Origin: Sunxiuqinia elliptica
Lineage (GTDB): Bacteria > Bacteroidota > Bacteroidia > Bacteroidales > Prolixibacteraceae
DNA length: 64,000 nucleotides
Assembly: GCF_900113005.1 (NCBI RefSeq)
Contig: NZ_FONW01000004.1
Coordinates: 62,001-126,000 of the forward strand
Direction of reading: 5' to 3'
Positions 53,784 through 64,000 of the stretch are shown here, piece by piece (position 1 is the stretch's first letter; every line of letters starts with the position of its first letter). The notes beneath the pieces are model-generated. The model had not been told where the DNA came from. It was given only the letters and a program-made list of their open reading frames with translations, and searched no databases. A program made the position numbers and the translations under genes.

Positions 53784-56700
53784 TTATTCTTTCGCTTCAA
53801 GCTTGACTAGCTTATCAGCATCTCCATATTTTCGTTCAGAGCGTGCTGCCAATACAATCGCAACAACGATAATTCCAATAGCTACAAAAACAAAATCAGG
53901 AACGGGAGGTGCTTCTCCTTGAGCATAGGAGTGCATTCCTGATAAATAATAATTCACCCCAAAGAAGGTCATCAATACGGAACTAAAACCAACCAAAGAC
54001 ATCGCACTCAATGAAAAGTTAGTGTACATCCCTGGCACCTTGCGTAGATGAATAATAAACGAATAAACTAAAATGGTTACCAAGGCCCAGGTCTCTTTCG
54101 GGTCCCATCCCCAATAGCGTCCCCACGACTCGTTTGCCCAAACTCCTCCAATAAAAGCACCAATGGTCAACAAAATTAGGCCGACGATTACACAAAGCTC
54201 GATCACAATAGCTAGTTCAACAATGGTAAAAGAAGCATTTCGCAAGTTTGAGCCCTTGCGAAACATCATAATAAACAGATTCAGAAAACCTAAAATAGCG
54301 GCTACTCCCAGAAATCCATAACTGGCTGTAATAACTGCAACATGCACAATCAGCCAATACGATTTCAGCACAGGAACCAAGTTGGTAATTTCGGGATTCA
54401 TCCAGCTCATTCCGGCCACCATCAGAATCAAGGAAGCCAGAATAGTGGTTACAGCTAGCGTTATGTGCGACTTCTTAATGAATACAAAACCGGTTAATAA
54501 GGTTGCCCAACCAACATAGAGGAGCGTTTCATACCCATTACTCCAGGGAGCGTGCCCTGAGATATACCATCGCATGGCGAGTCCCAAAGAGTAGGCTGCA
54601 AAAACAAAGGCAATCAAAAAAGTTCCCAGGGTTTGGAGTTTGCTCAGCTTCAGCTTATCATTAAAAATACGAATCAAATGAACGATGAGCAGGAAGAGCC
54701 CAACAACACCCGCAAACTTTGACAATAAGCTAAAAATATTAAGTTTATTATATAAAATCTCAAGCTTTATTTTTGCCTTTCCTGGAATAATTTCATGCCC
54801 GTGTGTTTGCTGGAAGTCTCTTAAAGCCTCCAACTTTTGGTTGGCAGTTTGATAATTCCCCTGCCCCATGGCCTGATTAACCGCCTGAAAATAATCTGTC
54901 AGTAAATGAATTGAATCCTGTTTATGCGCCGGAGATTCATAAAACTCTTTTTCATTGGCCCACTTATTATTATCATGATTCAAAACAGGAAATACCTGCA
55001 AAAAGTCTCCTTGAAAAATCTGAAAACAGATATTCATACGTTCATCGACATTGATCACCTCTTTATCAAACTTATTCCGTTGGGTTTGTTGCTTCTGATA
55101 AGTAGCATCGACCAACTGTTGCAGTCGATACACCCCGGTCTGCAAATCAAGCAATTGATTAAACGCGATGTACTCATCCCGAAGCCCCAGCTGCTTTCGT
55201 AATTCACTATTTGAAACCCGGATGATCGGTACATTTCGCCAAGCATTTGGGCGAGCACTCATGCTCAAAAATACTTCGGAAGCAGACATCCCCTCAAACG
55301 AGTTCTTTCGATTTAACTTTCGTAAAACTTCTGAAGCCAGTGTATTAACAGGCTCAACACGCCCTTTGGGATCCTGTACCAATAAGGTTTCAAACGACTT
55401 CACATGCTCCTGATTCAACTCTAAATTAGTCACAGACTGAGCCGAGCCCCAAAAAGGAGCAATCGTTAAAAGTGCCAGAACGATTACCGGTATACTTTTC
55501 TTGCGCAGCTCTTTTAAACGAGAGCTGGAACGCAACAATGCATGAAAACGGCTTTTCCCATTGAAGAACGTAAAAATCATTCCCAATGACATCAGAAAAT
55601 AACCAAAATAAGTAACCACTGTCCCAAGGTAATCGTGACTTACCGAGAGTACCGTCCCTTTTTCATCGGTATCATAAGAAGACTGGAAGAAGCGGAAGCC
55701 GCCATAATCCAGAATGTTATTCATAAAAATCCGGTAAGGCATTTTTACGTTCTCGGTGTCATCAATTAGCGTCACCTCGCTCGCGTAAGAAGATGGACTC
55801 ATACTTCCTGGATAGCGTTCCAGCTGGAAGTCATCCAGGAAGATACTAAAAGGGAGTTCTATTAATTTAGAGCCAAAATTAAGCTTAACCTCTACATCAC
55901 CGAATTGTGCTTTACTGGCAGCATGCTCCTTTCCTTGTTTGTAGGCAACAATCTGCCTCTCTTCACCATTCATTGCCAATCGTACCATTAACGCATCACG
56001 TCCTAAAGCTGCAGCTCGTCCAGTCGCTGTAGAAAGCACCTTTCTACCTGAAGGCAAATAAGACTTCGTTGCAAAAATACGGTCTCCCACTTGATACATC
56101 CCTTTGGAGCTCAGCTCGAACTCATGTCCAGCCGGGAAAACTTGTTCTGTTTTTCCAGTCATTGACACGACTTTGACACTATCCTTTGCTTGCATCAAAA
56201 GCTTAATTCCCGATCTTCGAACATACAAATCAGCCTCTTTGTTTTCCCCTTCAAAACTAAGCGTATAGTCGTTATTTGTTACCTCCTCTGTTGCTTCCAA
56301 AACGACATCCCGCCTGGCTCCATTGCGGTTCAACAAAATAAAAGACAATAAAGGCTTACCTCCTTCATCGGCCACAATATCTTCCATGGCTGTAGGCACA
56401 TAGTCAAGCACTTCTATGGATAGTTTGTCTCCATTAATAGCCATTTCTTTCGAAAAAGCATTCTTGGTGTATGGTGAAAACCGAACTTTCCAATCACCTG
56501 AAACAACGGACTTTCCCGACTTTGCTTCTACTTCAATATAGGTATCACTAGAAATCAACTGATTGGATGATTTTCCTTCACGAATATGCAACATCCCCTC
56601 ATAGCTATAGAAGCGGGTTATAGCGGCCCCTGCCAGAATGATTAAAAAGGCCAAGTGGAATAAAACCATGCTCCAACGCTTCAATAAAAAGGCTTTATAA

Positions 56701-56900
56701 TAAAACAAACTCCCAATCAAATTGAAAGCTGCAAATCCCAATAAAAGGTTGAACCATCCTGCTTCATAAACTAAAATTTTGGCTGTGTCGGTACCATAAT
56801 CATTCTCAATAAAAGTGGCATAAGCGATAGAAACTCCAAAAATAACCACTAAACAAGAGGTCGTTAACATTGAAAATAAGGTGGACTTTATCTTTTTCAT
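53784..56900 (-). CDS. ccsA: Fused cytochrome c assembly protein CcsBA (ResB-CcsA)
   Basis: A 1038-residue system II cytochrome c synthase. The N-terminal half is ResB-like: helices at about 10-30, 45-65 and 80-95, a large periplasmic region with repeated beta strands (SDTYIEVEAKSGKSVVSGDWKV) and a helix near 425-445. A further periplasmic region (about 490-740, from TNLELNQEHVKSFETLLV) leads to CcsA with about eight helices. The haem-handling WWD-type signature reads WGRYWGWDPKETWAL, with flanking His residues in IVHVAVITASYG and IIHLRKVPGM. It exports haem and attaches it to CxxCH motifs. Placement next to a multihaem cluster with 22 haem motifs is functionally coherent. Confidence 0.93.
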   Translation of the reverse strand: MKKIKSTLFSMLTTSCLVVIFGVSIAYATFIENDYGTDTAKILVYEAGWFNLLLGFAAFNLIGSLFYYKAFLLKRWSMVLFHLAFLIILAGAAITRFYSYEGMLHIREGKSSNQLISSDTYIEVEAKSGKSVVSGDWKVRFSPYTKNAFSKEMAINGDKLSIEVLDYVPTAMEDIVADEGGKPLLSFILLNRNGARRDVVLEATEEVTNNDYTLSFEGENKEADLYVRRSGIKLLMQAKDSVKVVSMTGKTEQVFPAGHEFELSSKGMYQVGDRIFATKSYLPSGRKVLSTATGRAAALGRDALMVRLAMNGEERQIVAYKQGKEHAASKAQFGDVEVKLNFGSKLIELPFSIFLDDFQLERYPGSMSPSSYASEVTLIDDTENVKMPYRIFMNNILDYGGFRFFQSSYDTDEKGTVLSVSHDYLGTVVTYFGYFLMSLGMIFTFFNGKSRFHALLRSSSRLKELRKKSIPVIVLALLTIAPFWGSAQSVTNLELNQEHVKSFETLLVQDPKGRVEPVNTLASEVLRKLNRKNSFEGMSASEVFLSMSARPNAWRNVPIIRVSNSELRKQLGLRDEYIAFNQLLDLQTGVYRLQQLVDATYQKQQTQRNKFDKEVINVDERMNICFQIFQGDFLQVFPVLNHDNNKWANEKEFYESPAHKQDSIHLLTDYFQAVNQAMGQGNYQTANQKLEALRDFQQTHGHEIIPGKAKIKLEILYNKLNIFSLLSKFAGVVGLFLLIVHLIRIFNDKLKLSKLQTLGTFLIAFVFAAYSLGLAMRWYISGHAPWSNGYETLLYVGWATLLTGFVFIKKSHITLAVTTILASLILMVAGMSWMNPEITNLVPVLKSYWLIVHVAVITASYGFLGVAAILGFLNLFIMMFRKGSNLRNASFTIVELAIVIELCVIVGLILLTIGAFIGGVWANESWGRYWGWDPKETWALVTILVYSFIIHLRKVPGMYTNFSLSAMSLVGFSSVLMTFFGVNYYLSGMHSYAQGEAPPVPDFVFVAIGIIVVAIVLAARSERKYGDADKLVKLEAKE

Positions 56901-57042: not shown

Positions 57043-58545
57043 TTAATACAAACTAAAATGGCACTCAGAACAGAATGTTGTTCGCCATGTTTCGTTGATA
57101 TTGATCGGATGTTTAAATTCCAATGGATTATCAGATGCCGCATACTGCATTTCATCAGCTGTTCCTTGAGCTAAAATATTATGACACAAGTTACAGTCGC
57201 GAGATATGACTTTCCCTCCAGTCGCTTTATGGCGATCATTATGACAACGATAACAGCCATTGGTCTCCAAATGTCCGAGATGATTCGGATACACTTTCCA
57301 GTTCACTTTCATCTCCGGAAAAATATTTTCATTAAAGCCGTCTTTCATTGCAGTCAATGCTTGTTCATAAAGTTCCTTTTGGTCACTTAAAACCTCAGGA
57401 TACATGATTTCATAATACTCATTGGCATAAGCCTCAATAGCCCGCATTGCACTATCAGCTGTCGGGTAATCTGCTCCTAAGGCATCCATTGCGACCACTT
57501 TAATATCAGGAATATCTTTTGAAATACGGCCAGATGTAATGTAGTCATCGATAAAATTAGCAGGTGATTGATAGTTATGAGAAGGTCGGTTATGACAATC
57601 GATACAGTCCATTGTCCTCAACTCCAAGGTCTGTAAATCCATGCCTTCAGTTTCGACTGATTCGTCTTCATAGATCGTCACCTCCCCGGTTTTCAGGTTG
57701 GTATATTTCACCCAAGGAATTGTGTCACGCCCGACATCCAGCGCTTTATATTCTATTTTTACATCTGGATTGATGTGCCAGTGAATACCTTCCTGGAGCC
57801 CTTGAGCACTATAAGTTGCACTGGTTTTCATCATTAAATGAATATCCCACTCGGTATTACTTCCATCAGCCAAATATGATTTTTTTGTCTTGATTTTGCG
57901 ATCATAGAATTTCTCCGTCCAGTGACATTCTTCGCAGGTTTCCCGGGCCGGTCTCAAACTGCTGATTGGCGTATGAATGGGTTGCGGATATTTATTAAAG
58001 AGTACTGAGTAGACCTGATATAATCCTGAAAGCTTACTTTTTACATACCATCCAGCTCCCGACCCCACATGACATTCAACACAGCCAACCCGCTCATGTG
58101 CCGACTCTTGGTAGGCAGTGTACTCCGGCTTCATTACCTGGTGACACAACTTACCACAAAATTCATCTGACTCTGTTAAATGAAAGGCTTCGAAACTCCC
58201 AATTGATGACAAGATCAAAAAACAGATTGTCCCCGCTACAAAAATGATCGTTGCATTTCTAACCGGTTGCTGATTGAAATCAATTACGGGCCAATCTTTG
58301 GGCTCCTCATATTCAGGATGTTTTTTCAACCTTCGCTTCTCTCGCCACATTCCGATTGGCATCAGAATCAATCCCAATACCAAAACCATTGGCATAACGA
58401 CATAAATAAAGATGCCCAAGTAGGAACTCCCAATCTCAAAGATTGATGAAACAATAAAGAGAAACAGGATAATCAATAAGCTGATAACAGCAATAGAAGC
58501 ACCAACGACAGTAGTCAAATTTCGAACTGATTGCGGCAATTTCAT
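57043..58545 (-). CDS. NapC/NirT-like membrane-anchored multihaem cytochrome c
   Basis: A 500-residue protein. It has two helices near the N-terminus (about 12-35 and 40-65) and a third at about 95-118, then a periplasmic domain. The haem motifs are CGKLCH, which has three residues between the cysteines (CX3CH), and six normal CX2CH: CVECH, CEECH, CIDCH, CYRCH, CNLCH and CSECH. The ESDEFCGKLCHQVMKPEYTAYQ segment is the NapC/NirT quinol-oxidation region. It most likely accepts electrons from menaquinol or the cytochrome b and passes them to periplasmic cytochromes. I chose the ATG at 58543-58545; an upstream in-frame start adds 17 residues before the first helix. It is last in the operon, before a strong terminator. 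Confidence 0.88.
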   Translation of the reverse strand: MKLPQSVRNLTTVVGASIAVISLLIILFLFIVSSIFEIGSSYLGIFIYVVMPMVLVLGLILMPIGMWREKRRLKKHPEYEEPKDWPVIDFNQQPVRNATIIFVAGTICFLILSSIGSFEAFHLTESDEFCGKLCHQVMKPEYTAYQESAHERVGCVECHVGSGAGWYVKSKLSGLYQVYSVLFNKYPQPIHTPISSLRPARETCEECHWTEKFYDRKIKTKKSYLADGSNTEWDIHLMMKTSATYSAQGLQEGIHWHINPDVKIEYKALDVGRDTIPWVKYTNLKTGEVTIYEDESVETEGMDLQTLELRTMDCIDCHNRPSHNYQSPANFIDDYITSGRISKDIPDIKVVAMDALGADYPTADSAMRAIEAYANEYYEIMYPEVLSDQKELYEQALTAMKDGFNENIFPEMKVNWKVYPNHLGHLETNGCYRCHNDRHKATGGKVISRDCNLCHNILAQGTADEMQYAASDNPLEFKHPININETWRTTFCSECHFSLY

Positions 58546-58667
58546 AATGACAGTAATTAGGTGATTAGTAATCCTTCTGCAAATATCTTCATTCACTCAA
58601 TCGCGCTGAATGAGTTACTCATAATCAACACCAAACCAAATCCTTCCCCAATAAACCAGCCAACTAA

Positions 58668-59324
58668 TTATTTCTTCTCTTTGGGATCCTCCTCTTTTGG
58701 ATGAACATCATGGTAACCATTTACGATACTTCGGAAATTGTCCAAAGGATTCTTCCCAATCGATGCGACATACAAATGAATAATCAAGAATACCGAGATC
58801 AGAAAACCAACAGAACCGTGCAATAAGGCAGTTAGAAATACCCCACTAACAGCATATACCTCTTCAATAATTAACTCAGGAAACAATAGTGCGATCCCGG
58901 TTAAGATGGCTAAAGGCACAAAGACGTACATCACAAAAATGTATGCATACTTTTGCAGTGGATTGAATTTTCTTTTCTCAGAAATTGGGAAAGGAGCTTC
59001 TTCGCCTTTGAATAATCCCGACAGATAATAGTTAGCTTGCTTACGAACGCGCTTAACTAATCCTTTGGGTTTGATACGATAGTATTTTTTATTGGGTGTT
59101 ACCAGATTACCAATAATAAAAACAAAATAGTTTAATGTAACCACAACTCCACTAATATTGTGCATCTGGACTGCCGTTCCAAAATCCATTGATAAAAGTC
59201 GTAAATCTGAATATTGCAAGCGAATACCGGTTATAATCAGCAGTATAATTCCCAAAGCATTAATTCCATGCCAAATTCTCAACCAGAGCGGGTACAGGTA
59301 TATTTTATTATTTTCAGAGGTCAT
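58668..59324 (-). CDS. Cytochrome b561-type membrane subunit
   Basis: A 218-residue protein with four or five helices. The first reads WHGINALGIILLIITGIRLQY, with a likely haem-binding His in WHG; a second His lies in MHNISGVVVTLNYFVF; later His residues are in LLHGSVGFLISVFLIIHLYVA. This is the pattern of PF01292 cytochrome b561/HydC/PsrC-type subunits that bind two b-type haems and oxidise or reduce quinone. It starts two bases after the stop of the seven-haem cytochrome gene, so the two are translationally coupled and presumably form one complex. Confidence 0.87.
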   Translation of the reverse strand: MTSENNKIYLYPLWLRIWHGINALGIILLIITGIRLQYSDLRLLSMDFGTAVQMHNISGVVVTLNYFVFIIGNLVTPNKKYYRIKPKGLVKRVRKQANYYLSGLFKGEEAPFPISEKRKFNPLQKYAYIFVMYVFVPLAILTGIALLFPELIIEEVYAVSGVFLTALLHGSVGFLISVFLIIHLYVASIGKNPLDNFRSIVNGYHDVHPKEEDPKEKK

Positions 59325-59326
59325 AG

Positions 59327-60268
59327 CTACTTTCTTTTAACGATTCGGAAAATCCAGTGAATTGCGATAGCAACAAGTGTCATTCCAAAGATAATGAAGC
59401 TTAAAAGCCTCATCAATGGATTTTGATTGGCTCCAATCACGTACGACTCATTCCTGATCAAATTACTCAACTCTCCATCTTCACTTCGGGCTTGTAAGTT
59501 TTGATATTTATACAATGATGCCTTTAACAATGAGTTGGACGAGTGACAATCATTGCAATTTCGCAAAGCTTCCTCTTTTGGCAAGATGTTGTGAGAAACT
59601 AAAAATGAATCGACAACCACCGTATGGCATTCAATACATCGAACATTTTGGAAATGCAATTCCTGGTTTGGTAACCAATCGTGCACTTGACTTAACTGAG
59701 GATTTTCCTCTGACGAAACCGTTTGAAACTTTAAAACGTTGTCATGACAAGACAAACACATATTATTATTGTAAGTCACAATTTCAGATACCTTGCTACT
59801 GTTACGGGCCGTCGCCTGGTAATAGTGTTGGTTATGACATTTAGAGCAAGAAAAGCTCTCTCCACTTGTCTGAAAATGAACACTTTTATGAAATTCCTCT
59901 TCAATTTTATCGAACTGGTAGTCAGCGTATGTATCATCGCCTCCATGGCAATCAATACATGTTGCCAATGGCTCCAGCTTTAATTCTGCATTGTGCGGAT
60001 AGGTTTCATAATCCGCAGAATGACAATCAGTACATCTAAAAGTACCATGCACACCTACTGCCATCATTGTTGAGTCAATGATGTAAAAAGGATTCATCAT
60101 CCTTTTAGTTTCCACCTCTAACCATTCATTAAAAAACGAATAGGTTTGGTTGGCATGGCACGATAAACAATGGCTATTTTCAGCAGGCATCTCCTTATCC
60201 TGCCCATTCCCTACAATTCCTATCAAAAGAAATGACAAGAATAAACACGTTTTGAGAAAGGTTGACAT
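59327..60268 (-). CDS. Seven-haem cytochrome c with C-terminal membrane anchor
   Basis: A 313-residue protein with signal peptide (FLKTCLFLSFLLIGIVGNGQ). It has seven CX2CH motifs: CLSCH, CTDCH, CIDCH, CSKCH, CLSCH, CIECH and CNDCH. Extra His residues (for example in EEFHKSVHFQ and NQHYYQ) are candidate sixth ligands. A membrane helix ends the protein (LLSFIIFGMTLVAIAIHWIF), followed by a basic RIVKRK tail, so the haems face the periplasm. The His in that last helix may take part in quinone or haem contact. I chose the ATG at 60266-60268, because an upstream ATG (60298) lies inside a terminator hairpin. It is coupled to the cytochrome b gene. Confidence 0.9.
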   Translation of the reverse strand: MSTFLKTCLFLSFLLIGIVGNGQDKEMPAENSHCLSCHANQTYSFFNEWLEVETKRMMNPFYIIDSTMMAVGVHGTFRCTDCHSADYETYPHNAELKLEPLATCIDCHGGDDTYADYQFDKIEEEFHKSVHFQTSGESFSCSKCHNQHYYQATARNSSKVSEIVTYNNNMCLSCHDNVLKFQTVSSEENPQLSQVHDWLPNQELHFQNVRCIECHTVVVDSFLVSHNILPKEEALRNCNDCHSSNSLLKASLYKYQNLQARSEDGELSNLIRNESYVIGANQNPLMRLLSFIIFGMTLVAIAIHWIFRIVKRK

Positions 60269-60281
60269 TTTGCGAAGGATT

Positions 60282-60308
60282 AAAAGCCGGAAGCTCATTG
60301 CCTCCGGC
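60282..60308 (-). terminator. Hairpin between monohaem cytochrome and seven-haem cytochrome genes
   Basis: Stem GCCGGA / TCCGGC (plus-strand 60285-60291 region and 60303-60308), followed on the minus strand by TTTT. It lies 15 bases after the upstream stop and 14 before the next start. It is probably a partial terminator that sets relative expression within the cluster. Confidence 0.65.
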
Positions 60309-60322
60309 CCAATAACAGATTC

Positions 60323-60742
60323 TTATTTCATTGATCTCAAATAGTTAACTAGCGCCCAGCGATCTTCCTCCTCTGGAATTTTACTTTCATAATTTGGCAT
60401 CTCATCACGTCCAATAATGGATTGATAATAAATAACACCATCAGACTGCCCCTGAAACTTATCTGAGGTAAATGATTCAATTGCTGTCTCTAAGCTGGCA
60501 GCTTTCGGTCCATCTCCCTCTCCCTTATTTCCGTGGCATGACCGACAATGCTTGATGTAAAGAATCTTTCCAACCTTCATCAGCGATGCATCATCTTTTG
60601 ATGGATTTTCCATCTTCTGATATTTTTCTGGAACATCCCATGCTTCACCTTTTTTCTTATCTTGAACGGTTACAAACGATAATAGTAATCCGCCAATAAA
60701 TACAACAGCCAAAAGTGTTAAAAAATTTCTGTGCTTTTCCAT
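60323..60742 (-). CDS. Monohaem class I cytochrome c
   Basis: A 139-residue exported cytochrome. A signal anchor (FLTLLAVVFIGGLLLSFVTVQ) without a clear cleavage site is followed by a class I haem domain: CRSCHGNKGEGDGPKAASLE with GxGDG, then a Met ligand candidate in GRDEMPNYESKIPEEEDRWALVNYLRSM. The C-terminal helix WALVNYLRSM is typical of small soluble c-type cytochromes. It may shuttle electrons between the membrane-bound cytochromes and the outer-membrane components encoded upstream. Confidence 0.92.
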   Translation of the reverse strand: MEKHRNFLTLLAVVFIGGLLLSFVTVQDKKKGEAWDVPEKYQKMENPSKDDASLMKVGKILYIKHCRSCHGNKGEGDGPKAASLETAIESFTSDKFQGQSDGVIYYQSIIGRDEMPNYESKIPEEEDRWALVNYLRSMK

Positions 60743-60764
60743 ATCCTTCGATTTTAGTTAACGA

Positions 60765-61646
60765 TTAAAAACTCCACAATCGAGTGATTGTGAACCCTAT
60801 AGCAAAGTTATCAAAATCCGTGCTATTGAAGTTGTTCATCATGATGTCCTGCAACAACATACCTTCTGAATTGCCCATATAAATCTGGAAAGCATGGGTA
60901 CTTGTAGAAACTTCATACCCAAATGATAAATTTGGCTTAGGGTGGTTGTCCCATTCTGGACGTTGTTCTGATATCTTATCAATTTTCAGAGGAGCATCGA
61001 AATTAAAGATAATTGCTCCCTGAGGACTAACCTTTGCGCGACCATTAAAGTGAAGTCCAACCCGATCATGATCATACTCCGGAGCCACTGAGTTGGCATG
61101 AGAGAAACTAAGTCCTGCTTGCAAGGAAATTCCGTCAGTAACTTTTCGCCCAATAATCAATTGTGAAAAGTAAGACAGACGATCGCTAAACTGGTATTCA
61201 GTTCCAAAATCTTCTTCTGGACTTCCCTCAATCGCTGCATTTCCATACAGTGTTACAAATACTGGAATCTGATTTTTTCGGGTTTGCTCCAAAATAGTCC
61301 ACTTGGCATTAAAATCATTGTACATTTTTCGCTTAGAAATACCCCAACCTATTTCCACATTATTGGCAACAACATAATTCAGTCCAAGCCGAATATTGCC
61401 AGCGGGAGCATAAATCCCCCACAAATCAGAATGGCCATTTTCTACTGGTCCGAATTTATGCTGAATAACCATCTTCAGCGTTTTTACCGTAGGAATATGA
61501 GAAGTTTGCTGATCAATCAACACCCCACTCTCCCACGCAAATCTTACGGGTTTATCTTTTTCCTTTTCTTCGGTAGCTTCATCCTGAGCAAATAAATTAG
61601 TGGAAACAAACAGACCTAAAAGGATAAATAATATAATATTCTTCAT
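60765..61646 (-). CDS. DUF5777 outer-membrane beta-barrel protein
   Basis: A 293-residue protein with signal peptide (FILLGLFVSTNLFAQ, cleavage near AQDE). The mature part is a beta-barrel: strand-like stretches TLKMVIQHKFGPV, IRLGLNYVVANNVEIGWGI, IPVFVTLYGNAAI, RLSYFSQLIIGRKVTDGISLQAGLSFS (given in two halves: LSYFSQLIIGRKV and ISLQAGLSFS), LSFGYEVSTSTHAFQIYMG and a C-terminal FAIGFTITRLWSF ending in Phe. It matches the DUF5777 barrel family. Its location between cytochrome genes makes it a candidate pore or scaffold for an outer-membrane cytochrome. Confidence 0.8.
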   Translation of the reverse strand: MKNIILFILLGLFVSTNLFAQDEATEEKEKDKPVRFAWESGVLIDQQTSHIPTVKTLKMVIQHKFGPVENGHSDLWGIYAPAGNIRLGLNYVVANNVEIGWGISKRKMYNDFNAKWTILEQTRKNQIPVFVTLYGNAAIEGSPEEDFGTEYQFSDRLSYFSQLIIGRKVTDGISLQAGLSFSHANSVAPEYDHDRVGLHFNGRAKVSPQGAIIFNFDAPLKIDKISEQRPEWDNHPKPNLSFGYEVSTSTHAFQIYMGNSEGMLLQDIMMNNFNSTDFDNFAIGFTITRLWSF

Positions 61647-61669
61647 AGTTTAAGTTCTTTTGAATTTCA

Positions 61670-62050
61670 CTAATTATTCTTCGCTCCTTGTTCAATCCAC
61701 ACCAAAAGATATTGTGCTTGAGCTGCCGACAAGTGCTTCCAGCTGTGTGTCGAAGCATCGGGCGCTGCATAAGAATAGATCAAGCTTGATTCAGGATTGT
61801 CCTGATTAATATATTTGGTTGTGTTAATGCTCTGGTAAGCATTTTCAGCAGTAAGATCCGGGGCTTTCCCTCCAGGCTTGTGGCAACTGGCACATTGCGC
61901 TGTAAAAATTGGCAGCACTTGCGTTGCAAAGCTAACGTCCTCCGTTGAAGGGATATCTGGCACTTCCTCAGGGACAACAAAAGCATAATCACAAGATGCA
62001 ATTGTTAAACCAAGGAATGCAATTAATAAGAGTATTTTATTTTTTTTCAT
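61670..62050 (-). CDS. Monohaem cytochrome c-like lipoprotein
   Basis: A 126-residue lipoprotein (LLLIAFLGLTIASCDY, lipobox ASCD). It has one CASCHKPGG haem motif in the setting VLPIFTAQCASCHKPGGKAPDLT, which is the DUF1592/PSCyt-type short cytochrome domain found in Bacteroidota lipoproteins, and a C-terminal QAQYLLVWIEQGAKNN helix. I chose the ATG at 62048-62050, because a longer frame adds 17 residues before the signal. It stands between the six-haem lipoprotein and the barrel gene. Confidence 0.88.
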   Translation of the reverse strand: MKKNKILLLIAFLGLTIASCDYAFVVPEEVPDIPSTEDVSFATQVLPIFTAQCASCHKPGGKAPDLTAENAYQSINTTKYINQDNPESSLIYSYAAPDASTHSWKHLSAAQAQYLLVWIEQGAKNN

Positions 62051-62133
62051 GCTGCGTAGTATTAAACTTATCAAAGAATAAGAAAAAAGCTTCCATTTCA
62101 CCCAGAAGCTTCTTCCTTTGCACTATATTTTAC

Positions 62134-63174
62134 CTATTCTGCTTTAAGTGCTTCAATTGAATTGTTCAACAGCGCTCTAACATATTTTGGATTGTGAACA
62201 CCCAAACTACGGTCTTCTTCTAAACCAACCCAGTTAAAGAATGCTCTTGCTTCAATCATTGGATAAGTACCTACAACTGGATGGAAACCGTCCTCTTCAT
62301 TGCCGGCAATTACTCCACGATCAAGCAGCAAATCTCTTAGCTCAGCCAAACTTTCGTGCATCTCGGTTTGAACACCACCATAATTATAGTCTTCCAAATT
62401 TGCATCGTGACAGTCGTTACATGCATCAACATTAGGAATCCAAGAGTGGCCGCCTTGGCCGCTGGAGAATTCAGCCATATGACATCCAACACAAGAAGCT
62501 TGATTCAAGTGGAAATTTGAACCTGTTTCCGGGTATGGAGAAGAGCCGTCAATTTCAGCAAAACCTACACCTGCAACAACATTAGCTTGTGCACCATGGT
62601 GTGGACCGTAGTGAGTACTTGATATGTAGAATGTTTCTTCTCCTGGATTCGTTTCATTCGGTTCTGCTCTGCGAGACTGGTGACAATTGGCACAAAGGTT
62701 ACTATTACCTTGAAGATCCATCGTTATTGCATCATTAAAGATAGGAGCAACCGGATCAGTCAATCTCAAGGCATAGTCATCGGAATCAAATGAATCATGC
62801 AATCCGTGGCATGTTCCACACTCCCAAGCATTAGGGCTAGTTATATTTCCAAATACTTCACCGAACTCGGCATACTGAACAAATCCTTCATGAGAGTGGC
62901 AGGCCGCACATGAGGCGCGCGCTCCAGCATAGGCGACTGCATTAACACCACTTTTGTGGACCGACATGGCGAACTGCCCTTGAATTGCTTCAATATTGTC
63001 ACCCCCATGACAAACCAAGCAAGTAACATGACCATCAGCTCCATCCGAACCATCGGCTCCATCAGCTCCATCAGCTCCATCCAATCCCGGAGGACCTTCT
63101 TTTACACACGCAGGAATAATAAACAATACCAACGAGGCAACAAACAGTAATCGAACTATTTCTCTGAGTTTCAT
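62134..63174 (-). CDS. Six-haem cytochrome c lipoprotein with collagen-like linker
   Basis: A 346-residue lipoprotein (LFVASLVLFIIPACVKE). Directly after the lipidated Cys a collagen-like stretch of seven Gly-X-Y triplets runs from GPPGLDGADGADGADG to GSDGADG. Then six CX2CH motifs follow: CLVCH, CAACH, CGTCH, CANCH, CVGCH and CNDCH. The repeat is visible in the DNA as 9-bp units around 63040-63090. The linker probably spaces the haem domain from the membrane, possibly to expose it on the surface or to form a trimer. The start is the ATG at 63172-63174. It is first in the cluster, behind an FNR-type box. Confidence 0.87.
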   Translation of the reverse strand: MKLREIVRLLFVASLVLFIIPACVKEGPPGLDGADGADGADGSDGADGHVTCLVCHGGDNIEAIQGQFAMSVHKSGVNAVAYAGARASCAACHSHEGFVQYAEFGEVFGNITSPNAWECGTCHGLHDSFDSDDYALRLTDPVAPIFNDAITMDLQGNSNLCANCHQSRRAEPNETNPGEETFYISSTHYGPHHGAQANVVAGVGFAEIDGSSPYPETGSNFHLNQASCVGCHMAEFSSGQGGHSWIPNVDACNDCHDANLEDYNYGGVQTEMHESLAELRDLLLDRGVIAGNEEDGFHPVVGTYPMIEARAFFNWVGLEEDRSLGVHNPKYVRALLNNSIEALKAE

Positions 63175-63297: not shown

Positions 63298-63311
63298 TTG
63301 ACATATATCAA
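63298..63311 (-). promoter_or_regulatory. FNR/Crp-type box upstream of multihaem operon
   Basis: TTGACATATATCAA matches TTGAT-N4-ATCAA at nine of ten consensus positions. It lies 124 bases upstream of the six-haem gene start and directly after the stop codon of the Crp/Fnr gene. Confidence 0.65.
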
Positions 63312-64000
63312 TCAGCCGTTTTTACTGATTTTTATCAGCTCTGGCTCATTCAAAATCTCAATTTCATTACGGCTTTGTTTGATGATACCTGAGACTTCTA
63401 ATTCCTTCATACTTCGGATAAAGCTTTCCTTTGTCATTCCAGACATTTCAGCAAACTCTTGTTTGCTTAATTTGTAGGTAAAAGGATTGGCATGAAAGAT
63501 CTCATTTTTCAAGTAGAGTAGAGTATCTGCTACCCGCCCGGGCATATATTTTTGGGTTAGTCCAATTAGCGTGCTAAGCATCTGCAAATTTTGCTTATTG
63601 TTATATTTGAGCAGTTCGTAAGCAAATTTACTATTCCGAGCAAGGAGGGTGTGTAGCCTATTCGAATCAATGAAACAGCATTCAACTTGAGTTAAAGCCG
63701 TCACCGTGAAATGTCGAATGTCATCACTAATTACTCCACCAGCCGTAATTAAATTATGTGTAGAAATTAGCTTCAAAATAACATTTTTACCATTGGTACC
63801 TTCTGCGAGGACTTTAGCTAAGCCTTCCTTCATACAAACAAAATGAGTTGTAGAAGTATTTTGTTTTATAATTGTCTCACCTGGATTAAAAATGACATTG
63901 CGTTTGCAAGTCATTAGATAATCCATATCTTCTTTCGTTAAACATTCAAAAATGCTTGCTTCAGCCTTAGGCAAACAGTTTAGACAACAAGTTCGACTAC
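63312..64000 (-). CDS. Crp/Fnr-family transcriptional regulator, N-terminus cut by window end
   Basis: The frame is open to the right window edge, so the start is not in the window. The visible part reads CCLNCLPKAEASIFECLT at the start, a cysteine cluster like that of FNR-type sensors. A cyclic-nucleotide-binding fold follows (FNPGETIIKQNTSTTHFVCMKEGLAKV and ILKLISTHNLITAGGV), then a dimerisation helix and a helix-turn-helix (YKLSKQEFAEMSGMTKESFIRSMKEL). A TTG at 63972-63974 could serve as a start, but an upstream one is likelier because the frame remains cysteine-rich and open. Being next to the cytochrome genes, it probably controls them in response to oxygen or redox state. Confidence 0.85.
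   Translation of the reverse strand, partial: SRTCCLNCLPKAEASIFECLTKEDMDYLMTCKRNVIFNPGETIIKQNTSTTHFVCMKEGLAKVLAEGTNGKNVILKLISTHNLITAGGVISDDIRHFTVTALTQVECCFIDSNRLHTLLARNSKFAYELLKYNNKQNLQMLSTLIGLTQKYMPGRVADTLLYLKNEIFHANPFTYKLSKQEFAEMSGMTKESFIRSMKELEVSGIIKQSRNEIEILNEPELIKISKNG

Follow-up and report, generated by a model that had tools for sequence, protein, structure and literature searches.

Electron conduits of the MtrCAB and Pcc type unite a barrel, an outer-membrane multihaem lipoprotein and a quinol oxidase in one system, and their wide MtrB-type barrel is filled by a large periplasmic multihaem partner. In Thermincola, OcwA has been described as a cell-surface terminal reductase with an NrfA-like fold and two open haems, each located below a His-His pair (PMC6703420), while in Geobacter the reported working range of ImcH lies above about -0.1 V, CbcL and CbcBA being used at lower potentials (PMC12307469, PMC9129911). 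Here, a gene cluster of Sunxiuqinia elliptica (Bacteroidales, Prolixibacteraceae) is compared with these systems. It comprises seven minus-strand genes, A to G, at positions 57043-63174 of a 64,000-nucleotide stretch (NCBI RefSeq assembly GCF_900113005.1, contig NZ_FONW01000004.1, positions 62,001 to 126,000; referred to as the window), which is part of contig C11 of a genome of 5.09 Mb. As in MtrCAB and Pcc, a predicted barrel, a multihaem lipoprotein and a quinol oxidase occur together, and on balance the cluster probably encodes an extracellular or outer-membrane respiratory chain, which would be induced anaerobically and pass electrons of menaquinol to an acceptor located at the outer membrane or beyond it.

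Composition and spread of the gene cluster

The first-pass annotation, made from the sequence of the window, had listed the genes in the order A-B-C-D-E-F-G on one strand with 21 CX2CH and one CX3CH motifs in total. Recounting gave the identical result, with six CX2CH in A, one in B, none in C, one in D, seven in E, none in F, and six CX2CH together with the CX3CH in G. The gene identities proposed at that stage, e.g., DUF5777 for C, cytochrome b561 for F and a NapC/NirT region for G, agree with the Pfam and NCBIfam models by which protein domains were assigned.

Titled genomes were scanned with a profile of E, and the best 80 loci of 250 relatives were considered; 59 of these have at least 3.3 kb to the left and at least 4 kb to the right of E and are referred to as full-flank loci. 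On the same strand as E, these contain B and C in all 59, F in 58, G and the regulator gene in 35 each, D in 33 and a CcsBA gene in 26. A, counted strictly by excluding 4-haem and 16-haem genes, lies near E on the same strand in 53 loci and on the opposite strand in a further four. The order A-B-C is kept in all 53 loci that have the three genes on one strand, and in all 58 loci with F this gene follows E. The core genes A, B, C, E and F are a conserved unit that recurs across the Bacteroidales more often than by chance. Bacteroidales or Bacteroidetes are named in most titles of the 80 loci; Chlorobiota (L054) and Chitinophaga (L071) each appear as the title of a metagenome bin. The cluster was found in many Prolixibacteraceae as well as other Bacteroidales, and E has its nearest named relatives in Sunxiuqinia, with 81 and 80% identity over the best-matching segment. 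A search with A among 61 genomes around that of the window gave a match in 30, and of the 30 A-like places fetched, 28 have both DUF5777 and an E-like gene within the stretch. The other two are L043 and L038, and the contig of the latter holds B-C-E-F 12-13 kb away (L155). In two loci (L042 and L115), E is preceded by two tandem copies of A-B-C, which suggests independent diversification of this module.

In a survey of the phylum, matches to E with an E-value of 0.001 or less were obtained in 29 of 198 genomes, and only four genomes, including the window's own, exceeded 100 bits; the remaining lower-scoring matches are short and lie inside larger multihaem proteins. The E-like genes of the other three high-scoring genomes, all from outside the class, encode 7 or 13 haems and are accompanied in two genomes by F, G and a 19-haem gene. 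A-B-C was not found in the stretches fetched from these three genomes, and in the third (L160, at a contig end) an 8-haem gene matches A weakly. As E-F-G clusters outside the class are without A-B-C, the module looks like an addition within the Bacteroidales, as far as these have been sampled.

Outer-membrane components

The six-haem lipoprotein A is encoded at 62134-63174 (minus strand); its open reading frame is listed from 63219, and the start at 63174 agrees with the signal peptide and lipobox. The mature protein would begin with C-T/V-K-E-G, as in 51 of 52 aligned relatives, and continue with Gly-X-Y repeats that are modelled with low confidence (residues 20-49). Collagen-like Gly-X-Asp repeats thus occur in the N-terminal part of a predicted bacterial outer-membrane cytochrome (about 63030-63110), where they might serve trimerisation as well as form a stalk. 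The structural model of A (mean predicted local distance difference test score, pLDDT, of 84.5) has long helices at its end, and its best PDB match in Foldseek is OcwA (6i5b, 5.8e-5), followed by NrfA and octahaem nitrite reductases, with a template modelling score against OcwA of 0.50 by query length and 0.37 by target length. The profile matches are likewise headed by OcwA (6.9e-16), before a multihaem cytochrome chain (6qvm, 3.4e-15), NrfA (6.8e-13) and MtrC (3e-10). Together, motifs, alignment, model, Foldseek and profiles place A in the OcwA/NrfA superfamily. A C-terminal S-x-G-V-H-N is common to A and the OcwA of Thermincola potens, but OcwA has nine haems and belongs to a Gram-positive cell wall, whereas A has six haems, a predicted lipid anchor and the Gly-X-Y stalk.

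While NrfA and the octahaem nitrite reductases share the superfamily fold with A, their catalytic CX2CK motif is missing from it, as none of the 52 aligned A proteins has CX2CK and the six motifs of the window's protein are all CX2CH. In an alignment with an octahaem nitrite reductase, haem 2 of A falls on the CX2CK haem, and at this site A has CX2CH, as does OcwA. A G-P-H-H-G segment of A has a His-His pair in 41 of 52 sequences and His-Tyr in 10. Six conserved non-motif His positions are available for the six haems, so that bis-His ligation throughout would be possible; however, OcwA also had sufficient His and yet has two open sites (PMC6703420), which makes this argument weak for A. Two further assignments of A were rejected. 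Membership of MtrC was indicated by PF22113, which scores above its cut-off on A, but this model also matches Escherichia coli and is therefore not specific, and OcwA is the better match. An NrfA-type nitrite reductase was discarded since CX2CK is absent, and a true, full-length NrfA-family gene is located away from the cluster in the same genome (G000:C16:35902-37203). The first-pass annotation had noted that no terminal reductase is encoded here. Regarding NrfA this stands, as it is found elsewhere and no terminal reductase was found adjoining the cluster in the flanking stretch beyond the window end; yet A itself resembles a terminal reductase.

The neighbouring gene B (61670-62101, minus strand) encodes a monohaem lipoprotein with one CX2CH, for which a lipobox and a conserved N-terminal motif are seen in relatives, and its translation probably starts at 62050 (MKKNKIL). 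The likely axial-ligand loop carries His in 72 of 75 parsed relatives and Met in the other three. With such a ligand loop within B, the idea that barrel C provides the sixth haem ligand was dropped, though no distal residue is invariant in 26 sequences.

C (60765-61646, minus strand) is a DUF5777 protein (PF19089, 1.3e-67) predicted to form a beta barrel of 12 strands (mean pLDDT 89.9), which by this model would be too narrow, at a radius of ~11-12 Å, to enclose a folded cytochrome. Its PDB matches, among the best 50 of 931 from Foldseek, are FapF, OmpG, NanC, KdgM and other small channels or barrels. Based on hydrophobic alternation, the conserved His63, His183, His251, Arg167 and Arg289 are predicted to point outward and Arg86, Asp111, Lys115, Arg203 and Glu245 into the lumen; three of the outward residues, His63, His251 and Arg289, are invariant and would lie on the lipid face of the barrel. 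The MtrB/PioB model (PF11854) gave no match in any of 10 genomes, including the window's and that of Labilibaculum manganireducens, in a search that had no positive-control genome, scored one control below cut-off and did not extend to OmbB-type models. MtrCAB and Pcc thus differ from this cluster in their wide MtrB-type barrel and also in the large periplasmic multihaem partner, which the window's cluster does not have, its candidate D carrying one haem. The first-pass annotation had envisaged a porin-cytochrome conduit in the Mtr/Pcc sense; this proposal is not supported, in view of the 12-strand model and the ten genomes without PF11854, and the barrel wide enough for a cytochrome that it called for was not what structure prediction returned.

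The association of DUF5777 with cytochromes, which had been put forward as a check, holds within the cluster, where all 59 full-flank loci have B and C along with E, but only in part beyond it. The window's genome has a second DUF5777 gene (G000:C10:614577-615386; L004 8554-11214) in an operon of CHRD-like, monohaem lipoprotein, YceI and DUF5777 genes (named by eye), a layout that is alike in L144 and L145. Among 25 further DUF5777 places fetched, 12 combine a monohaem gene with a YceI match (a weak one in one place), and in two of these 12 the monohaem gene matches that of the C10 paralogue rather than B. Two others have a B-like gene without YceI, nine have no haem gene in the stretch, one is a fragment, and one (L155) is a further copy of the same cluster type. 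A monohaem lipoprotein is the commonest partner of DUF5777 in the sampled places, but not a fixed one; the nine places without a haem gene rule out that DUF5777 is always a cytochrome partner and imply that it is not, alone, an electron conduit. One YceI-type locus (L141) has a T9SS-tailed (type IX secretion system) monohaem protein, and in two places without a haem gene in the stretch, DUF5777 stands next to a Rieske-type protein (L150:7571-7975, by Pfam; L152:6189-6611, by eye).

Inner-membrane part, carriers and regulation

ImcH homologues of Geobacter and its kin are described as proteins of 495-519 residues that have three helices at the N-terminus and, besides an atypical CX3CH, six CX2CH (PMC6295460). 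G (57043-58596, minus strand; NapC/NirT, 1.4e-8) is 517 amino acids long as listed, most of its relatives have ~500, and its CX3CH (147-152) and six CX2CH are all conserved across 42 sequences. Three N-terminal membrane helices were read from the sequence by eye. As judged from its sequence, G fits the published length and haem-motif signature and resembles ImcH in its length of ~500-517 amino acids, its CX3CH and six CX2CH, and its N-terminal membrane part. This likeness is to the published signature alone and, unlike Geobacter ImcH, G often stands in an operon with the outer-membrane module.

A further candidate quinol oxidase is formed by F and E. F (58668-59324, minus strand) is a cytochrome b561-like membrane subunit (PF01292 Ni_hydr_CYTB/b561, 4.7e-25) with four invariant His (19, 55, 169 and 183) in 77 sequences, which are enough for two b haems; its best named model, under the cut-off, is the PhsC-like NF011582 (thiosulfate reductase b subunit). 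E (59327-60298, minus strand) is a seven-haem cytochrome (Cytochrome_C7, 4.8e-12) with a C-terminal membrane helix, read by eye, and has seven invariant non-motif His together with His314 in the C-terminal segment (23 sequences). E and F presumably resemble the split b/c quinol oxidase CbcBA. D (60323-60742, minus strand) is a monohaem cytochrome c (PF00034, 4.1e-9) and a likely periplasmic carrier.

Relatives of the cluster may carry other multihaem genes in this region. A 19-haem gene, counted without the 16-haem gene, occurs in 15 of 59 full-flank loci, and in the sole copy scanned (L057), c7-type repeats are combined with a b561 match that barely passes (30.6 bits, with the cut-off at 30.1). 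This is the plan of CbcL/MtrH/MtoC of Geobacter; a fused gene of their kind is absent from the window. The 19-haem protein (~940 amino acids) is encoded between F and G in L054, L057, L060, L072, L081, L082 and others, and in the first three a hydrophobic segment is seen by eye at its end. The 4-haem and 19-haem genes and D nearly exclude each other: 32 loci have D only, 20 have a 4-haem or 19-haem gene only, one has both and six have neither (Fisher p 1.5e-9, with loci that are related and hence not independent). Such a pattern would be expected if these were interchangeable carriers. In one locus (L056:11122-13812), a 16-haem protein with a T9SS sorting tail is encoded directly downstream of the cluster's CcsBA gene, and by this tail it is probably a secreted surface cytochrome.

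The cluster is flanked by the gene of an FNR-type regulator on one side and a CcsBA gene on the other. The regulator R (63312-64000, minus strand, extending beyond the window end to ~64037; 241 amino acids) has the Pfam domains cNMP_binding and HTH_Crp_2, and its N-terminal cysteines are clustered, likewise in the 14 relatives inspected out of 38. Between R and A lies an FNR-box-like palindrome, TTGATATATGTCAA in the minus-strand reading (63298-63311, no strand assigned). In 41 of 62 loci the region upstream of A contains the pattern TTGA-N6-TCAA, whereas 12 of 704 other genes in those loci are preceded by it; shuffled controls gave a mean of 0.5 and a maximum of 4, and the whole 64-kb window has five copies. 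We take the FNR-box consensus to be TTGAT-N4-ATCAA, and with this assumption both the box and the N-terminal cysteines of R fit FNR. The natural reading would be an oxygen- or redox-controlled operon under an FNR-type regulator. A scan for sigma-70 promoters showed no excess (22 found, 21.5 expected). Past the window end, the remainder of the regulator gene is followed by SPFH-like, sigma-factor-like and UvrA-like genes (by eye). On the other side, the next gene after G is H (53784-56900, minus strand), encoding a CcsBA cytochrome c maturation protein (ResB and Cytochrom_C_asm, with the CcsB model just under cut-off).

Proposed electron path, alternatives and significance

That a quinol oxidase, carriers and outer-membrane haem lipoproteins fit extracellular electron transfer had been proposed at the first pass, and the CbcL-like gene of some relatives (a marginal match) agrees with this. 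The proposal has gained from the ImcH signature of G, the OcwA-like A, the FNR-like box and the Labilibaculum genes discussed below, and has lost its Mtr/Pcc conduit. In the resulting path, menaquinol would be oxidised in the inner membrane by the pair of F and E, with two b and seven c haems, respectively, and also by G alone, while D would carry the electrons through the periplasm. At the outer membrane, B may act as a lipid-anchored one-haem relay, held or positioned by barrel C, and A may be the terminal reductase, tethered by its lipid and the flexible Gly-X-Y stalk, from which electrons could pass to Fe(III) or Mn(IV) minerals, humics or another extracellular acceptor. As C appears too narrow for a folded cytochrome, either B and C would make an unusual contact, or A and B would be flipped to the surface like many Bacteroidota lipoproteins and be fed by a path that the model does not explain. 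It could tentatively be speculated that the Bacteroidales evolved a form of extracellular respiration of their own, in which an OcwA-type stalked surface reductase receives electrons through the outer membrane from a one-haem lipoprotein and a narrow 12-strand DUF5777 barrel with conserved, predicted outward His and Arg, without a cytochrome-filled pore as in MtrAB; the loci with DUF5777, a monohaem gene and YceI, one of them T9SS-tailed, might then be a smaller version.

A link to phenotype is offered by Labilibaculum, isolates of which are described to reduce Fe(III), and one also Mn(IV), by a pathway that is not known (PMC5760507). With glucose present, L. manganireducens 59.10-2M reduces Fe(III), both as citrate and as oxides, and also Mn(IV) oxides; its authors pointed only to a ferric reductase and NrfHA, with no established pathway (PMC5760507; repeated in PMC9765461). 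Its genome has B-C-D-E-F together at a contig end (L089), A on a second contig (64% identical) and G on a third (51% identical). In L. euxinus, A adjoins F on the opposite strand (L091, L164), and E is present in seven of nine Labilibaculum genomes. By this co-occurrence, which is no proof, the cluster would be a good candidate for the metal-reduction chain that has been missing in Bacteroidota.

Several points weigh against an extracellular respiratory chain. The model does not account for electron passage through the outer membrane, a 12-strand barrel having a backbone radius of ~11-12 Å against ~24 Å for one of 26 strands, and the outward orientation of A is putative. The published Bacteroidota signal for surface export is K-(D/E)2 (PMC5080379), with which the C-T/V-K-E-G start of A agrees only partly. 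OcwA is reported to reduce nitrite and hydroxylamine slowly (PMC6703420), so an OcwA-like fold is no proof of a solid acceptor. Both G and the 19-haem gene are missing from the vicinity in 22 of 59 full-flank loci, and the link to metal reduction in Labilibaculum is one of co-occurrence only, in a genome that has NrfA too.

The main rival explanation, which we consider rather unlikely, is that A is an outer-membrane-anchored but periplasm-facing reductase of a soluble acceptor (nitrogen, sulfur or other), so that the chain would be an ordinary periplasmic one and C a solute channel for the acceptor. It draws on the place of A in the NrfA/OcwA superfamily, the alignment of its haem 2 with the haem at which octahaem nitrite reductase is catalytic, and conserved His of A near what we take to be the active-site Tyr and His positions of NrfA. 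The resemblance of C to small-solute and export channels (FapF, OmpG, NanC and KdgM) and the thiosulfate reductase b subunit as best, though under cut-off, model of F point the same way. However, A shares with OcwA the absence of the NrfA CX2CK (0 of 52), the genome has a true NrfA elsewhere, and the ImcH-like G and the 19-haem partners indicate extracellular respiration.

The direction of flow and the unity of the cluster may also be questioned. Electrons might run inward via A and B to the quinone pool, donated by a partner cell or by metallic iron or Fe(II) outside the cell, as multihaem chains can be reversible and the Prolixibacteraceae are named in a review of iron corrosion via electron transfer (PMC4767289). 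Yet, this is very unlikely in our view, as ImcH homologues were, by 2018, described only from Fe(III) reducers (PMC6295460), and both the FNR-like box and a Labilibaculum that reduces Fe(III) and Mn(IV) are in keeping with respiration. Alternatively, DUF5777 and the lipoproteins could perform another task at the outer membrane, e.g., protein assembly or solute uptake, and merely be co-transcribed with a quinol oxidase module. The nine of 25 other DUF5777 places without a haem gene in the stretch, the position of some beside YceI or a Rieske protein, and the E-F-G clusters without A-B-C outside the class would suit this. It is nevertheless highly improbable given that B and C accompany E in every full-flank locus and that a monohaem gene adjoins or lies near C in 14 of the 25 other places.

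In the accessible text of the literature searched, no mention of DUF5777 was found, nor was such an operon described where Bacteroidota are treated together with extracellular electron transfer (EET), porins, ImcH or CbcL. A 2021 anode study describes in the genome Bacteroidetes_1 a cluster of seven genes, one for a beta barrel and six for cytochromes that its authors all call multihaem, as a previously uncharacterised EET cluster (PMC8258643); likened by description only, it may be the same as that of Sunxiuqinia. Existing surveys are described as resting on porin models of MtrB, OmbB and Ext (PMC7399161) and may overlook this cluster. The cluster genes supply a short list of knock-out targets for metal reduction in Labilibaculum. 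If the extracellular respiratory chain is true, it would transfer electrons at the outer membrane without a porin of the MtrB type and with a type of reductase known from a Gram-positive metal reducer, and it would provide a metal reduction system in a phylum seldom counted among metal reducers.

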